DNA from: Lachnospiraceae bacterium AC2029
Lineage (GTDB): Bacteria > Bacillota > Clostridia > Lachnospirales > Lachnospiraceae
DNA: 64,000 nucleotides
Direction of reading: 5' to 3'
Assembly: GCA_000703065.1 (NCBI GenBank)
Contig: JNLK01000001.1
Span: 744,001 to 808,000 of the forward strand
Part shown: one piece after another, positions 25,681 to 62,376 of the stretch
Numbering within the stretch: position 1 is the first letter of the stretch
Layout: every line of letters begins with the position of its first letter
Made by a program: the position numbers and the translations under genes
Notes under the pieces: model-generated
Told to the model about the DNA's origin: nothing
What the model saw: the letters and a program-made list of their open reading frames with translations, nothing else
The model's database searches: none

Positions 25681-25779
25681 GAGGGACGGTTCTGATTCGA
25701 TCAGAACCGTCCCCGATTTTCGGGGACAGGTCTGATCAGGGAGGGACGGTTCTGATCGAACCAGAACCGTCCCCGAATT
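25681..25779. repeat. REP-like palindromic repeat, copy 1
   Basis: Two 60-bp-spaced units of GGGACGGTTCTG ... CAGAACCGTCCC palindromes joined by a GGGGACAGGTCTGATCAGG linker. The same doublet occurs at 26943-27062. Such GGGACGGTTCT palindromes resemble REP elements mobilised in trans by Y1-type transposases; none is in this window. Confidence 0.85.
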
Positions 25780-25786
25780 GCACCCC

Positions 25787-26803
25787 TCAGCTCACCAGAC
25801 CGTTCGGGCCCTCGGAATATCCTTCCAGGCCGCTCTGCAGCATGCGGAACACGTGGTTGCGCAGGCTCTCGGGCTCGAGGATGGTGGTGTCCATAGTGTG
25901 GTTCATTGCGAAGTCCACAGCCCGCTGTACGTCGGTTTTGGTGGAAACCAGGATATGTCCGTTCCGCATCCGGTTCACTCTCAGATCCCGACTGCCGAAG
26001 CACTCCACGAATTCAGACACTCTGTCTTCCGCGGACAGGAACTTAACGGACAGTTCCCTGGCGCCGCTCTCCTTCCGGGTCTTCTTTCCATAACGATTAC
26101 CGGAGGTTTCTGCCATTCTCATATTCGATATCAGATCAAGTCTATACATAAGCTCCTCCTCTCTTTCGTCCCTGCAGAACAGATAGTACCTTCCGTCACG
26201 GAGCTCCGTTTCATACGGCGTCACGGTACACTCCGTGAACTCCTCCTCCAGCCCCTCCCCGCCGACGCGGTAGAGCGGATACCGGAAGCTGACCTTCCTG
26301 TTCCTGGCGATTGATTCATTTATAATATCCAGCGTATAGAACAGCTGGCTGTTGGTGAAACGACTGTTCATCTCCTTCTTCACGAATCCGCTTCTCTTCC
26401 GGAAATACTTACTGGACAACCCCTCCAGCTTTCTGATCAGTTCATCCTTCTGATTGTCCGGAATGCACTCTGCATCCAGCACGCTGTCGATCAGAAAATG
26501 CAACTCGCAGTCCATGATCTCTTTCTGAAGATAGAAGCCGCTGCAAACCGCCTGTTCTTCCATCTCACCTGTATCACGGCAGTACACCAGCCTTGTCTTC
26601 TCACTCCACTGGATATCCATGCCCATGTCAATGAGATCCATGATATTTCTCTTGATGGATTTACGGTCCACAACCAGATCATACTCGTTTTTCAGAAGCT
26701 CCTCGATCTCCTTCTGGCTGAGGCTGTGATTCTCATCCGTATATCGCCGGAGAATATCCAGAATATCAAGCACTATCATTTTCTTAGACTGCTTCGTATA
26801 CAT
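25787..26803 (-). CDS. WYL-domain transcriptional regulator, copy 1
   Basis: 338 residues. An N-terminal winged helix (LDILRRYTDENHSLSQKEIE, VDRKSIKRNI) is followed by a WYL sensor domain (RKVSFRYPLYR, TPYETELRDGRYYLFC, YRLDLI) and a C-terminal WCX-like extension. WYL proteins sense nucleic acids or nucleotides and often control defence and DNA-damage genes. I start it at ATG 26803, nine bases after AAGGAGG. It is clearly paralogous to the regulator at 53490-54587. Its own promoter carries the shared GACAAATTTGT-type element, so it may be autoregulated. REP-like repeats flank it on both sides. Confidence 0.92.
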   Translation of the reverse strand: MYTKQSKKMIVLDILDILRRYTDENHSLSQKEIEELLKNEYDLVVDRKSIKRNIMDLIDMGMDIQWSEKTRLVYCRDTGEMEEQAVCSGFYLQKEIMDCELHFLIDSVLDAECIPDNQKDELIRKLEGLSSKYFRKRSGFVKKEMNSRFTNSQLFYTLDIINESIARNRKVSFRYPLYRVGGEGLEEEFTECTVTPYETELRDGRYYLFCRDEREEELMYRLDLISNMRMAETSGNRYGKKTRKESGARELSVKFLSAEDRVSEFVECFGSRDLRVNRMRNGHILVSTKTDVQRAVDFAMNHTMDTTILEPESLRNHVFRMLQSGLEGYSEGPNGLVS

Positions 26804-26942: not shown

Positions 26943-27062
26943 CGGGGACAGGTGTGAGCGGCCAGGGACGGTTCTGGTTTGATCAGAACCGTCCCCGATT
27001 TGCGGGGACAGGTCTGATCAGGGAGGGACGGTTCTGATCGAACCAGAACCGTCCCCGAATTG
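26943..27062. repeat. REP-like palindromic repeat, copy 2, inside an rtcB remnant
   Basis: Two 60-bp units (26943-27002 and 27003-27062) of the same palindrome as at 25681. The block ends exactly where homology of the upstream rtcB fragment to intact RtcB stops, so insertion or rearrangement at this element truncated the gene. Confidence 0.85.
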
Positions 27063-27369
27063 ACGAATTGACCGCATCGATCTGCTGAAAAGGATACTTT
27101 CTGGTATTCAGCTTTGCCAGGGTCATCCCGCATCCGATATCCACTCCCACCAGACTCGGAAGGATGGAATCTCCGACGGTCATGGTGAGGCCGATGGTTC
27201 CCACCTTTCCCGGATGTACATCCGGCATAACCCGGATGACGCTTCCCTCTGCGCTGGGATGATCACAGATCCGCTGCGGCTGCTTGCGGGCGTAATCCTC
27301 CAGTGCATATGTTTCATTTTCAACTGTGTACACGATCGCATTCGTGTACTTTCCGTAAATTGTAATCAT
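27063..27369 (-). pseudogene. Truncated RtcB RNA ligase (N-terminal fragment)
   Basis: About 100 residues from MITIYGKYTNAIVYTV to QQIDAV match the start of the intact RtcB at 59850-60992 almost residue for residue, including VMPDVHPGKVGTIGLTM and GVDIGCGMT, which holds the first metal ligands. The catalytic histidine region is missing: the frame runs into a REP-like repeat. GAGG before the ATG and the whole leader upstream are still in place, so the fragment may be transcribed. No prfH remains here. Confidence 0.9.
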
Positions 27370-27404: not shown

Positions 27405-27431
27405 TAGAAAGAGCACCGCAAAGCGGTGCTC
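27405..27431 (-). terminator. Terminator or attenuator between leader ORF and rtcB fragment
   Basis: Nine-base-pair stem GAGCACCGC / GCGGTGCTC with loop TTT, followed by TTTCT on the minus strand. It lies between the small leader ORF and the rtcB start, the same position as the terminator at 61175-61200. Confidence 0.8.
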
Positions 27432-27462
27432 CCATCAAATCGGTCTTCAAAAGAAGATGGAA

Positions 27463-27531
27463 TTATATGAGGCCACCCTTTGCATAAGTGCTATTCATTT
27501 TTCCGTTTTTTAAGACCATAGTACCCAGCAT
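27463..27531 (-). CDS. Conserved leader peptide upstream of rtcB, copy 1
   Basis: 22 residues, starting MLGTM and containing NGKMNSTYAKGGL. AAAGGAGG lies five bases before ATG 27531. The same arrangement and the core NSTYA(E/K)GGL occur upstream of the intact rtcB at 61246-61335, although the surrounding DNA differs at many third positions. That pattern suggests selection on the peptide or on ribosome movement through it. It is followed by a TCTTC-TTTT-GAAGA hairpin and a terminator. Confidence 0.7.
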   Translation of the reverse strand: MLGTMVLKNGKMNSTYAKGGLI

Positions 27532-27597
27532 GGTGTCCTCCTTTCTGCCACGAATCACGGGCGAATAAACAAATGATTTTTTGCGTCAGCATTTACG

Positions 27598-27658
27598 AGT
27601 ATATGGGGCACGCCCCGGAAATTCAAGCCGATCGTGAGATTTTCACATTATCTTCACA
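27598..27658 (-). promoter_or_regulatory. Promoter and Pho-box-like repeat of rtcB leader, copy 1
   Basis: TTGAAT, 17 bp, TATACT make a good sigma-A promoter. About 15 bp upstream of the -35, the plus strand reads TTCACA-TTATC-TTCACA, two hexamers at 11-bp spacing as in PhoP-type response-regulator sites. The same direct repeat stands at the same place at 61439-61455. Confidence 0.7.
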
Positions 27659-59849: not shown

Positions 59850-60992
59850 TTAGTCCCTCCCTCCAGCTTTGTAGTTGTATACCGGCTTCAGGATAAGTTC
59901 AATCTTCACCGTTTCCTCAAGCACGTCAATGATGTCATCGATCCGCCGGTAAGCGAAGGGACTCTCATCCAGCGTGTCTTTATTGATGCAACTGGAGTAA
60001 ATGCCCTGCATTTCCTTCTTGAACTCTGATACCGTATGATGCGAAGCAACCTCAGAGCGCTTATAGATTCTGCCCGCACCGTGGGGCGCTGAGCAGTTCC
60101 AGTCCGCATTACCAAGGCCTGTGCCGAGGATGATCCCGTCCCGCATGTTGATGGGAATGATCACCCGTTCATCATTCTCCGCTCTGATTGCGCCCTTACG
60201 AAGGATCGGGTGGGGAGTATCCGAGAAATCCACATAGTTGTGGATGCAGGTGAACATATCCTCCACCTTCCACTTCATCCCACGGACGATGGAATCGATC
60301 ATGGCCTCTCGGTTGATCCGTGCAAATTCCTGGGTTACTGCCAGGTCATGGAGATAATCCTCCATTAACTGACCGGTAAGACAGGTCATTTCATAAGGCG
60401 CATGACCGCCCTCTTTCTTCATCTGCTGTTCCTTCTGTCCTGCACGAAGATAATAATCCGTTACTTCCATACCCAGATGCCGGCTGCCGGAATGGATCAC
60501 AAGATATGTTCCCTTCTCGTCATCCCGGTCCACCTCGATAAAATGATTTCCTCCGCCAAGAGTTCCGATACTGCAAAGTGCCCGGCCTTCATCGATCTTA
60601 TCAAAACAACGAAGCCTCGTGAGTTCTGCCTGTTCTGCAAGCCGGTGGATCTTCTTCCGAAGGGTGCCGCCCGCCGGAACCTCCTCACGGATCACCGTAT
60701 CTAACTTCTGGCACTCCACGCCTTTGGTCTTCACCTTTGCGATGGTCATGCCACATCCAATATCTACGCCTACCAGACTGGGCAGGATGGAATCTCCCAC
60801 GGTCATTGTAAGACCGATGGTTCCCACCTTTCCGGGATGCACATCCGGCATCACCCGGATGGTGCTGCCTTCCGCAGACGGATGATTGCAGATCATTTGC
60901 AGCTGTTTTCTTGCGTATTCTTCTAACGCATATTCCTCATTTGCCACCGTGTAAACGATGGCGTTCGTATACTTTCCGTAAATTGTAATCAT
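59850..60992 (-). CDS. rtcB: RtcB-family RNA ligase paired with PrfH
   Basis: 380 residues from MITIYGKYTNAIVYTV. Motifs: VMPDVHPGKVGTIGLTM, GVDIGCGMT, GGGNHFIEVD, VIHSGSRHLGMEV and APHGAGRIYKR with the guanylylated histidine. I start it at ATG 60992, eight bases after AGAGG; the open frame further upstream is leader sequence. It is the RtcB2-like subtype that goes with PrfH. The N-terminus is nearly identical to the decayed copy at 27063-27369. A 400-bp leader with a promoter, a tiny ORF and a terminator precedes it. Confidence 0.96.
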   Translation of the reverse strand: MITIYGKYTNAIVYTVANEEYALEEYARKQLQMICNHPSAEGSTIRVMPDVHPGKVGTIGLTMTVGDSILPSLVGVDIGCGMTIAKVKTKGVECQKLDTVIREEVPAGGTLRKKIHRLAEQAELTRLRCFDKIDEGRALCSIGTLGGGNHFIEVDRDDEKGTYLVIHSGSRHLGMEVTDYYLRAGQKEQQMKKEGGHAPYEMTCLTGQLMEDYLHDLAVTQEFARINREAMIDSIVRGMKWKVEDMFTCIHNYVDFSDTPHPILRKGAIRAENDERVIIPINMRDGIILGTGLGNADWNCSAPHGAGRIYKRSEVASHHTVSEFKKEMQGIYSSCINKDTLDESPFAYRRIDDIIDVLEETVKIELILKPVYNYKAGGRD

Positions 60993-61174: not shown

Positions 61175-61200
61175 CAAAAAGGCACCCGCAAAGGGTGCCT
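61175..61200 (-). terminator. Terminator or attenuator in the rtcB-prfH leader
   Basis: GGCACCC / GGGTGCC stem with loop TTTGC, followed by TTTTTG on the minus strand. It sits between the leader ORF and rtcB, as in the decayed copy. The 180 bp from here to rtcB contain hairpins (GGGAGCTTACTCCC, CGGCGAAGCCG) but no gene I can support. Confidence 0.82.
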
Positions 61201-61245
61201 CTAAACCGGTCTCCAAAAGAAGACAGAATATACGTAGTGATACTT

Positions 61246-61335
61246 CTATCCGATGATCATATACCCTACCCGGAGGCCACCCTCTGCATAAGTGCTGTTC
61301 AATTTTCCGTCTTCTGTAATCATTGTACGCCACAT
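61246..61335 (-). CDS. Conserved leader peptide upstream of rtcB-prfH, copy 2
   Basis: 29 residues beginning MWRTM with the core DGKLNSTYAEGGL. AAAGGAGG lies five to six bases before ATG 61335. It is related to the leader at 27463-27531 in sequence, start signal and position. After its stop come a TCTTC-TTTT-GGAGA hairpin, the conserved GACCGGTTT box and the terminator. Confidence 0.7.
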   Translation of the reverse strand: MWRTMITEDGKLNSTYAEGGLRVGYMIIG

Positions 61336-61395
61336 GATGTCCTCCTTTCTGCCCATGGATGGGCGAATCAAAATATCATTTCATCAACAGACTTG

Positions 61396-61455
61396 ATTGT
61401 ATGAAACTTAAGCCTTTCCGTCAAGCCGAAAATTCCATTTCACATTATCTTCACA
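61396..61455 (-). promoter_or_regulatory. Promoter and Pho-box-like repeat of rtcB-prfH
   Basis: TTGACG, 17 bp, TACAAT is a strong sigma-A promoter. TTCACA-TTATC-TTCACA (61439-61455, plus strand) lies 14 bp upstream of the -35, the same as in copy 1. Confidence 0.75.
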
Positions 61456-61783
61456 TCTTCTCGGGGTTCGGAAAGTTCATATGAAATCTCTTATCAAAGC
61501 GCCCGCTTCTGATCAAAGAATCCGGGAGTTCCTGAATCGCATTCGTAGTTGCAATGATGAACACATCCTTATTTTTTGCCTCATCGATGCACGCTTGGAC
61601 TGTAACATATTCTTCCGCATCCCGATGATACATATCCTCATTTGCAAACTTGTCCAGATCATCCAGCAGAACAATGGACGGTGCATTCTTTACAGCCTTT
61701 TCGAATGTCTCTCTGATGTAATCCACGAACACCCCATCCGGCCGGTCTTTTCGGATCACATAAGTCTGCCGTCCACTTCCCAT
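61451..61783 (-). pseudogene. AAA ATPase fragment cut at both ends
   Basis: 110 residues with Walker B IVLLDDLDKF, sensor 1 VFIIATTN and LIRSGRFDKRFHMNFPNPE, the middle of an FtsH/Cdc48-type AAA domain. Walker A is missing: the frame begins just where it should end. The stop is supplied by the Pho-box-like sequence of the rtcB promoter, so the gene was interrupted when that module arrived. Confidence 0.82.
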
Positions 61784-62376
61784 CCTTCAACTGAAGCAAT
61801 GGTGTTAAACACTCTTTAAAATGCGAGAAAGGTTTATCAAACAACTGCTCTTCTATTTCTAAGTGATTTATCAATAATTGGGGAAGATAACACTCATAGC
61901 AGAAACCATTATCCAGATTAACCCAGAAGCGTCCTAAAGATGTACCCAGCCATAAATTTGCAGCATTGGCAAATTCAATAAACTCTCGACGGTTATTATC
62001 ATTAACAATAATTGGATGCATGAACATCATCATATGAATTCTGTCATGTTTTGTTATTCCTATAGTCTGCTGTAGTTCCCAGGAAAACAATTCATTCCCG
62101 ATCATAGCTGATAAATGGTATTCCTCCTCATCGGTTACAAACTGAATATTCTGACGATACATTCAGATTTCTGTTTCTACCAAAAGAAATCTCATAGCCA
62201 GCTTCCCCATCAGCTACCAAAAGATAATGTGATTCTGTACACTCTCCCGTTTTCAAAACATTATCCAGACAGTACATTCTTCCCTTTATCATCAATCTTC
62301 CCTTCTTCTGTTCGATTCGAACAGAAGTTGTCTCATTCTTCTGTTCAATTCGATCAGAAGTTATCTCATCATTCAT
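61659..62376 (-). pseudogene. YbjN-like protein in two frames, joined to the AAA fragment
   Basis: The first frame (62376 to 62128) begins with a repeat-derived MNDEITSDRIEQKNE and continues GRMYCLDNVLKTGECTESHY. The second frame (62162 to 61659) reads NIQFVTDEEEYHLSAMIGNE and FANAANLWLGTSLGRFWVNL, the style of YbjN/type III chaperone-like folds, and after PLLQLKDGKW it runs antisense to sense into the AAA fragment in a wrong frame. A frameshift near 62,150 and a fusion junction near 61,783 are both likely. Confidence 0.5.

Follow-up and report, generated by a model that had tools for sequence, protein, structure and literature searches.

In the leader of Bacillus subtilis vmlR, mutating the Shine-Dalgarno (SD) sequence or the start codon of the upstream open reading frame (uORF) virtually eliminates induction, two of three uORF codon variants work as well as the wild type and the third less well, and defects in ribosome assembly also induce (PMC9226507; here and below, statements on published systems follow the available portions of the cited papers). 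In Pseudomonas aeruginosa, PA5471.1 is a 13-amino-acid leader upstream of the drug-inducible armZ, which encodes the anti-repressor of mexXY, and PA5470 is a predicted release factor that a 2025 review calls prfH; an attenuation that responds to stalled or impaired ribosomes has been proposed for this transcript (PMC3516279, PMC12057347, PMC13041342). Here we analyze the leader of an rtcB-prfH operon in a 64,000-nucleotide stretch of Lachnospiraceae bacterium AC2029 (contig JNLK01000001.1, positions 744,001 to 808,000), referred to as the window. A first-pass annotation of this DNA, made from its letters alone, had held that no attenuator was described for rtcB-prfH; this was wrong, as PA5471.1 precedes armZ-PA5470 and transcription attenuation has been proposed there (PMC12057347, PMC13041342, PMC3516279).

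Comparative pairing and folding models indicate that the window leader is probably a ribosome-mediated transcription attenuator with three mutually exclusive helices, switched on when a ribosome stays on the early codons of a leader open reading frame (ORF).

A leader core with two partners

The leader and operon comprise the following features, in order of transcription. We number the arms 1 (SD/start region), 2 (ORF core), 3 (terminator 5' arm) and 4 (terminator 3' arm).

61419..61424, minus strand: -35 element TTGACG of the best sigma-A-like promoter match, with a 17-nt spacer
61396..61401, minus strand: -10 element TACAAT, which together with the -35 element agrees with 10 of 12 consensus positions
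61341-61346, minus strand: AGGAGG, SD of the leader ORF, read from the sequence
61331..61345, minus strand: arm 1, GGAGGACATCATGTG, the SD/start region of the leader ORF and anti-antiterminator strand, giving the best local helix with the core
61246..61335, minus strand: leader ORF of 29 codons, read from the sequence, ATG at 61335, peptide MWRTMITEDGKLNSTYAEGGLRVGYMIIG
61270..61296, minus strand: arm 2, AGCACTTATGCAGAGGGTGGCCTCCGG, the ORF core, partner of arm 1 (through 61272-61286) or of arm 3
61209..61224, minus strand: small hairpin GTCTTC-TTTT-GGAGAC followed by CGGTTT, a possible pause hairpin
61182..61209, minus strand: arm 3, the CCGG box with the terminator 5' arm and loop, antiterminator strand
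61177..61201, minus strand: intrinsic terminator (3:4), GAGGCACCC..GGGTGCCTT plus T-run, stem -16.2 kcal/mol
59850..60992, minus strand: rtcB, 380 amino acids, ATG at 60992, Pfam PF01139 at 194 bits
59255..59848, minus strand: prfH, 197 amino acids, TIGR03072 at 180.5 bits against a cut-off of 166.65

The order of promoter, AGGAGG, 29-codon ORF, hairpin, terminator and rtcB read by the first-pass annotation was borne out, with every element on the minus strand. It overlooked the key feature, namely that the core is complementary to both the SD region and the terminator arm. Arm 1 (GGAGGACATCATGTG) pairs with CAGAGGGTGGCCTCC in the core, and the core forms a duplex of -35.8 kcal/mol with the CCGG box and the terminator 5' arm. 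Because the terminator requires arm 3, which the core also binds, the helices 1:2, 2:3 and 3:4 are mutually exclusive. Pairing was measured by a local-helix score and tested against dinucleotide shuffles of the ORF; RNAduplex long-duplex energies for 2:3 were discarded as too noisy, since they allow long loops. In the window leader the 1:2 helix scored 20.8 (shuffle p 0.034) and the 2:3 helix 44.8 (p 0.010; the scored helix runs beyond 61270..61296). The 1:2 helix alone is only moderately unusual, and the case therefore rests on the set of related leaders.

To assemble this set, genome contigs were searched for PrfH and the best 80 of 102 loci were kept. We defined a window-type locus as a prfH behind an rtcB whose protein is at least 49% identical to that of the window, which gave 30 loci, the window included and each counted once, after removal of L034 and L057 (prfH at a contig end, upstream region not visible), L083 and L058 (without an RtcB match) and duplicates. 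A translatable leader ORF with its own SD, lying between promoter and terminator and carrying an SD-complementary core, is present in 24 of these 30 prfH-linked loci; 22 were identified computationally, and L042 and L146, near-duplicates of L041 and L143, by eye. The search upstream of other prfH-linked rtcB genes that had been suggested for the window leader thus recovers the layout, with sequences and peptides that differ from the window's. Promoter-like sites were found upstream of the leaders. The statistics below use 24 leaders, that is the 24 loci minus L042 and L146, plus the second copy in the window (see below) and the failing L044; they fall into 18 clusters at 70% identity, and their ORFs range from 17 to 42 codons.

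Both helices recur across this set, reaching shuffle p<=0.05 in 19 of 24 leaders for 1:2 and in 17 of 24 for 2:3. Arms also match their own partners better than those of other leaders: the mean 1:2 score was 22.9 for own and 18.9 for swapped partners, the mean 2:3 score 34.3 and 26.1, and none of 20,000 permutations reached the observed value in either case. When the constant GGAGG was left out and each of the 18 clusters was represented by one leader, the 1:2 helix retained a z of 6.4 (0/20,000), and 2:3, again with one leader per cluster, gave a z of 5.6 (0/20,000); the core window of this test (+36..+75) was set after the first helix scores had been seen and was the same for own and swapped partners. 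The compensating changes can be followed, for example, in the arm pairs GGACAATC/GATTGTCC, GGACAGCC/GGCTGTCC, GGAAGATC/GATCTTCC, GGATGATTACT/GGTAATCATCT and GAATGACTATG/CATAGTTGTTC. Leaders scored above 159 control gene starts, which are ordinary genes with a strong SD taken from the studied loci and the window (Mann-Whitney p 8e-11); 19 of 24 exceeded the 90th percentile of the controls and 10 of 24 the 95th. The position of the core is fixed as well: it begins +43 to +62 nt from the ATG in 23 of 24 leaders, and in all 24 it lies wholly within an ORF that stays open through it. The 2:3 helix overlaps the called terminator in 22 of 24 leaders, five doubtful terminator calls included. Terminator and antiterminator are mutually exclusive, with a covarying 2:3 helix, and the leaders contain a vmlR-type helix that pairs the SD/start region of the ORF with the antiterminator strand, with a 1:2 helix that covaries without the constant SD.

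The first-pass annotation had taken the peptide core NSTYAEGGL to be the conserved element, a view that the comparison contradicts. With the base paired to the last G of the SD as reference, the core lies in phase 0, 1 and 2 in 11, 3 and 9 leaders, respectively (n=23; L044, which has no helix, was omitted). One and the same octamer, GATTGTCC, occupies phase 0 in L037 and L038 but phase 2 in L039, L040, L041 and L045, and L037 and L039 belong to one 70% cluster despite this difference. The leader peptides of 17 cluster representatives share a median identity of 22% and a maximum of 48%. As the core is read in all three phases, it is the RNA pairing that is conserved and not the peptide; what looks like a short conserved peptide of a leader can in fact reflect an RNA helix.

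Predicted states and competing readings

The probability of the terminator stem was computed by equilibrium folding, with the ribosome footprint held single-stranded, for the 19 leaders with a clean terminator; L036, L044, L049, L132 and L139, whose terminator calls are doubtful, were kept out. Its median was 0.89 in naked RNA (mean 0.67), fell to 0.07 with a ribosome at the start (mean 0.33), and stood at 0.91 with a ribosome at the stop codon (mean 0.70) and at 0.95 with one on the core, at codons 13-24 (mean 0.82). A start ribosome lowered it by >0.5 in 8 of 19 leaders versus 4 of 228 shuffled-ORF controls. When the ribosome was moved along the ORF in 21 leaders (the 19 together with L161 and L162, described below), the median stayed at 0.07-0.13 over codons 1-5 (means 0.31-0.41), had risen to 0.81 by codon 7 and was no lower than 0.91 from codon 13 onward. 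Eleven of the 19 are predicted to be closed when naked (probability over 0.8). In RNA that does not yet include arm 3, the mean predicted probability that the SD window pairs with sequence at least 30 nt beyond the ATG is 0.66.

These results suggest the following mechanism. In the absence of a ribosome, the 1:2 helix would form as an anti-antiterminator that also hides the ribosome-binding site of the leader ORF, and 3:4 would terminate transcription. During normal translation the ribosome would pass over arm 2 and depart, again leaving 3:4 to terminate. A ribosome that has initiated and stays on about codons 1-5 would cover arm 1 and leave arm 2 free, so that 2:3 could form in place of the terminator and rtcB-prfH would be transcribed. 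The operon would then report ribosomes that initiate without elongating, such as might be expected from an antibiotic block or from damage to the decoding centre; the signal would be the ribosome stalled at the start codon and not the identity of a peptide or a drug. The first-pass proposal that ribosomes stalling on the leader alter its folding and open the terminator is in this form supported in silico, by the covarying 1:2 and 2:3 helices and by the ribosome-masked folding, with exceptions among the leaders.

Several observations weigh against an early-codon switch. A recognisable leader of this kind is missing in 6 of the 30 loci (L009, L010, L044, L050, L142 and L148); by eye, another ORF ends close upstream in L142, L148 and L050, so rtcB may not be the first gene of the transcript there. 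The 1:2 score of the window is matched by 8.8% of the 159 control gene starts, and those of the second copy and L033 by 18%. A start ribosome leaves the terminator probability above 0.5 in 6 of 19 leaders (L035, L037, L038 and L046 >0.9; L133 0.77; L141 0.76), a ribosome at the stop codon gives <0.5 in another count of 6 of 19 (L039, L040, L041, L140, L143 and L144), and 4 of 19 are predicted to be open when naked (L039, L040, L041 and L043). L144 and L040 remain open even with the core masked, and the terminator of L162 is unchanged at every ribosome position. For the window leader, the naked RNA is predicted to be evenly balanced (0.49), and the antiterminator is the minimum-energy fold. Equilibrium folding ignores co-transcriptional timing, and the order of synthesis should favour 1:2 early.

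Two of the loci without a recognisable leader, L009 and L010, have a 27-codon ORF (MKLRRQDLTTAKTLINKG...) some 100 nt before rtcB; it is accompanied by GGAGGTCC, and GGGACCTTC inside it is complementary to its SD. No clear terminator was seen by eye in these two loci, which were not counted as leaders, and their ORF is possibly a translational version of the switch.

The anatomy, the covariation, the exclusivity of the helices, the rtcB-specific placement in the searched genomes (described below) and the states predicted by equilibrium folding are results of this analysis; that the switch works in the cell, and which insult naturally induces it, we infer. Whether the leader would be a general sensor of ribosome-targeting antibiotics, with nothing specific to cleaved ribosomes, is evenly poised; this is compatible with the early-codon attenuator. 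The leaders of vmlR, bmrCD and tlrB respond to antibiotics (PMC9226507, PMC4191407, PMC6851288), as does armZ to those that target the ribosome (PMC12057347), and nothing in the sequence speaks against such a role here, as a general and a damage-specific sensor would both act through early stalling. More tentatively, the leader might be a dedicated damage sensor, through which a ribosome whose decoding centre had been cleaved by the ribonuclease of a competitor would trigger production of the very release factor and RNA ligase that rescue and mend it. As arm 1 coincides with the ribosome-binding site, the operon would under this proposal be switched on only by a ribosome able to initiate yet stuck on the first codons.

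A logic like that of P. aeruginosa, in which complete translation terminates transcription, any failure of translation, possibly including a lack of initiation, opens the operon and arm 1 is irrelevant, appears unlikely. An amber mutation at codon 3 of PA5471.1 raises ArmZ (PMC13041342), so an incomplete round of translation may have another outcome there than in our model, and a 7-nt leader deletion gives read-through (PMC12057347); the balanced naked window leader (0.49) and the 4 of 19 leaders predicted to be open when naked would fit this logic as well. A 226-nt deletion in P. aeruginosa starts at the leader start codon and may also remove the terminator, and therefore says little on either logic. 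Two results speak against the P. aeruginosa-like logic: the covariation of arm 1 with arm 2 persists without the constant SD (z 6.4), and a closed state of the naked RNA is predicted for 11 of 19 leaders.

That the ORF and its pairings are incidental, and that the terminator serves an upstream transcript or lowers basal expression, is very improbable: neither terminators nor short ORFs are rare, the leader is absent from 6 of 30 loci and the window 1:2 helix is not outstanding by itself, but the arms covary, the core keeps its position, promoter-like sites lie upstream and no other place in 397 genomes carries the leader patterns described below. Arrest by the nascent peptide, in which NSTYAEGGL would stall the ribosome and act as the sensor, is the least credible reading and was dropped, because despite a similar peptide core in both window copies and L033 the core phase varies, down to the octamer GATTGTCC, the peptides of the 17 representatives diverge (median identity 22%) and a ribosome at codons 13-24 would cover arm 2 and is predicted to terminate (median 0.95).

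Second copy, distribution and other rtcB loci

Only one further match of the window leader was found genome-wide at E<=0.1, near 27.4 kb of the window, with 79% identity over 109 nt. It comprises the following features.

27598..27626, minus strand: promoter TTGAAT-17-TATACT, 9 of 12 consensus positions
27463..27531, minus strand: leader ORF of 22 codons, peptide MLGTMVLKNGKMNSTYAKGGLI
27469..27492, minus strand: arm 2 core, shuffle p 0.002 for 2:3 and 0.060 for 1:2
27410..27432, minus strand: terminator
26983..27369, minus strand: truncated rtcB of 128 amino acids, covering Pfam RtcB positions 15-76 of 426

The first-pass annotation had placed a decayed copy at 27405-27658. A leader is indeed present there; it is intact, and the decay lies in the downstream rtcB (128 amino acids), behind which the ORF list contains no prfH. 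The further statement that the peptide core is kept between the copies while the codons differ is mostly mistaken: 7 of the 9 core codons are identical, one is synonymous (AAC/AAT) and one changes the residue (GAG/AAG, E/K). At 26983-27060 the broken rtcB enters a repeat (GGGACGGTTCTGATC...) with the translation RGRFWFDQNRPSLIRPVPxNRGRF, which recurs in an ORF at 25701-26003, so that a dispersed repeat may have truncated this rtcB.

PrfH was detected at E<=1e-35 in 19 of 397 genomes of the family, that of the window among them, and the TIGR03072 cut-off was passed in 6 of 391 genomes of the class, which marks the operon as uncommon. One leader, L049, lies in an assembly labelled Treponema, a hint of transfer.

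We ran two DNA patterns, derived from two leader sub-types and based on sequence only, over the 397 whole genomes. The first gave four matches: two leaders already known, and two new places that each precede an rtcB, one of these genes being shortened; the second gave three matches, all known rtcB-prfH leaders. All seven places thus lie before rtcB, neither pattern matching anywhere else in the 397 genomes, and control patterns read backwards had no match in them. As the patterns were written from known leaders, the recovery of those is circular; the absence of other places is not. The genomes of both new loci are outside the 19 with PrfH. In one of them (L161:1954-2496), as in the window at 26983-27369, a shortened rtcB is still preceded by the leader, with no prfH seen downstream; the leader can outlive the operon. 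The other (L162:1410-2750) is a full-length rtcB preceded by the leader, and the next listed ORF there has 300 amino acids.

A second type of RtcB in Clostridia was scanned at 18 loci (L154 and L155 as printed sequence). A candidate short ORF was found in 15 of 18, with 10-14 codons in 13 of these 15, and none was found in L051, L064 or L054 (129 nt covered in the last). At least one terminator lies behind the ORF in 14 of 18 loci. Masking a start ribosome shifts these terminators weakly, with the largest drops in L066 (0.90 to 0.64), L147 (0.48 to 0.30) and L047 (0.97 to 0.83), and they were therefore not counted as the same switch. In L152-L156, L052, L053, L055 and L059, which carry this other RtcB type, many of the short leader ORFs have EV near the end of the peptide, and terminators CACGAT..ATCGTG and CCGTGG..CACGG occur, sometimes in tandem. 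These leaders may use another pairing scheme, perhaps closer to that of PA5471.1. It may be that rtcB-prfH operons are widely controlled by leaders, of more than one design, which we regard as a lead and not as a result.

The RtcB of the window falls far under the cut-offs of TIGR03073 (114 against 271.8) and PRK09588 (145 against 407), the two intein-less RtcB-family models that it matches. Judged by its sequence, it belongs to a divergent subgroup that the NCBIfam models would not name; its Pfam RtcB match is clear. An Rfam scan of the window gave no match at the gathering score. In three related leaders (window, second copy and L033), the small hairpin is followed by CCGG or CCGA between core and terminator; a hairpin in this place was not noticed by eye in the remaining leaders, and it is possibly a pause hairpin for RNA polymerase. 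Upstream of the window leader, at 61451-62162, overlapping fragments of AAA ATPase-like ORFs (DDLDKFAN..., ...SLIRSGRFDKRF) in different frames appear by eye to be decayed.

Comparison with known attenuators

Among the matches listed from the open-licence PMC literature, no description of a leader of rtcB-prfH in Bacillota was found, and as far as that literature was searched, the inducer of rtcB-prfH outside Pseudomonas is apparently undescribed. New here are the version in Lachnospiraceae and relatives, a structure supported by covariation, its placement before rtcB only in 397 genomes and the prediction of self-induced repair. The leader would offer a cis-acting answer to the question of the inducer in a group of gut and rumen bacteria, and one that can be read from the sequence.

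The Escherichia coli RtcB2-PrfH system has the same gene pair and role and protects strain ATCC25922 from colicin E3 (PMC9223846); it differs from the operon described here in that the words 'leader' and 'attenuat' occur 0 times in the available main texts of that paper and of Baranov 2006 (PMC1586002). B. subtilis bmrB-bmrCD resembles our prediction in that blocking translation of the leader lowers expression, and is unlike it in having its terminator inside a 162-bp ORF and transporter genes as targets, and in an anti-anti-terminator role that its authors left open (PMC4191407).

In P. aeruginosa PA5471.1-armZ-PA5470, a leader ORF, an RtcB-like gene and prfH lie on one transcript (PMC12057347, PMC13041342, PMC3516279), and the window operon has the same layout of a leader ORF before an rtcB-like gene and prfH, its ORF being longer than the 13 codons of PA5471.1. 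The two differ further: the leaders described here have 17-42 codons, PA5471.1 is on when cut at codon 3, and pairing of arm 1 (the SD) is not among the features described in the available parts of those papers. In architecture our leaders resemble that of vmlR, in which the uORF lies within an anti-antiterminator, followed by an antiterminator and an intrinsic terminator; vmlR differs in its ABC-F target gene, its 3-codon uORF (MIN) and an additional hairpin that sequesters the main gene's SD (PMC9226507). The leader would link the control of rtcB-prfH to the vmlR-type attenuators that respond to antibiotics.
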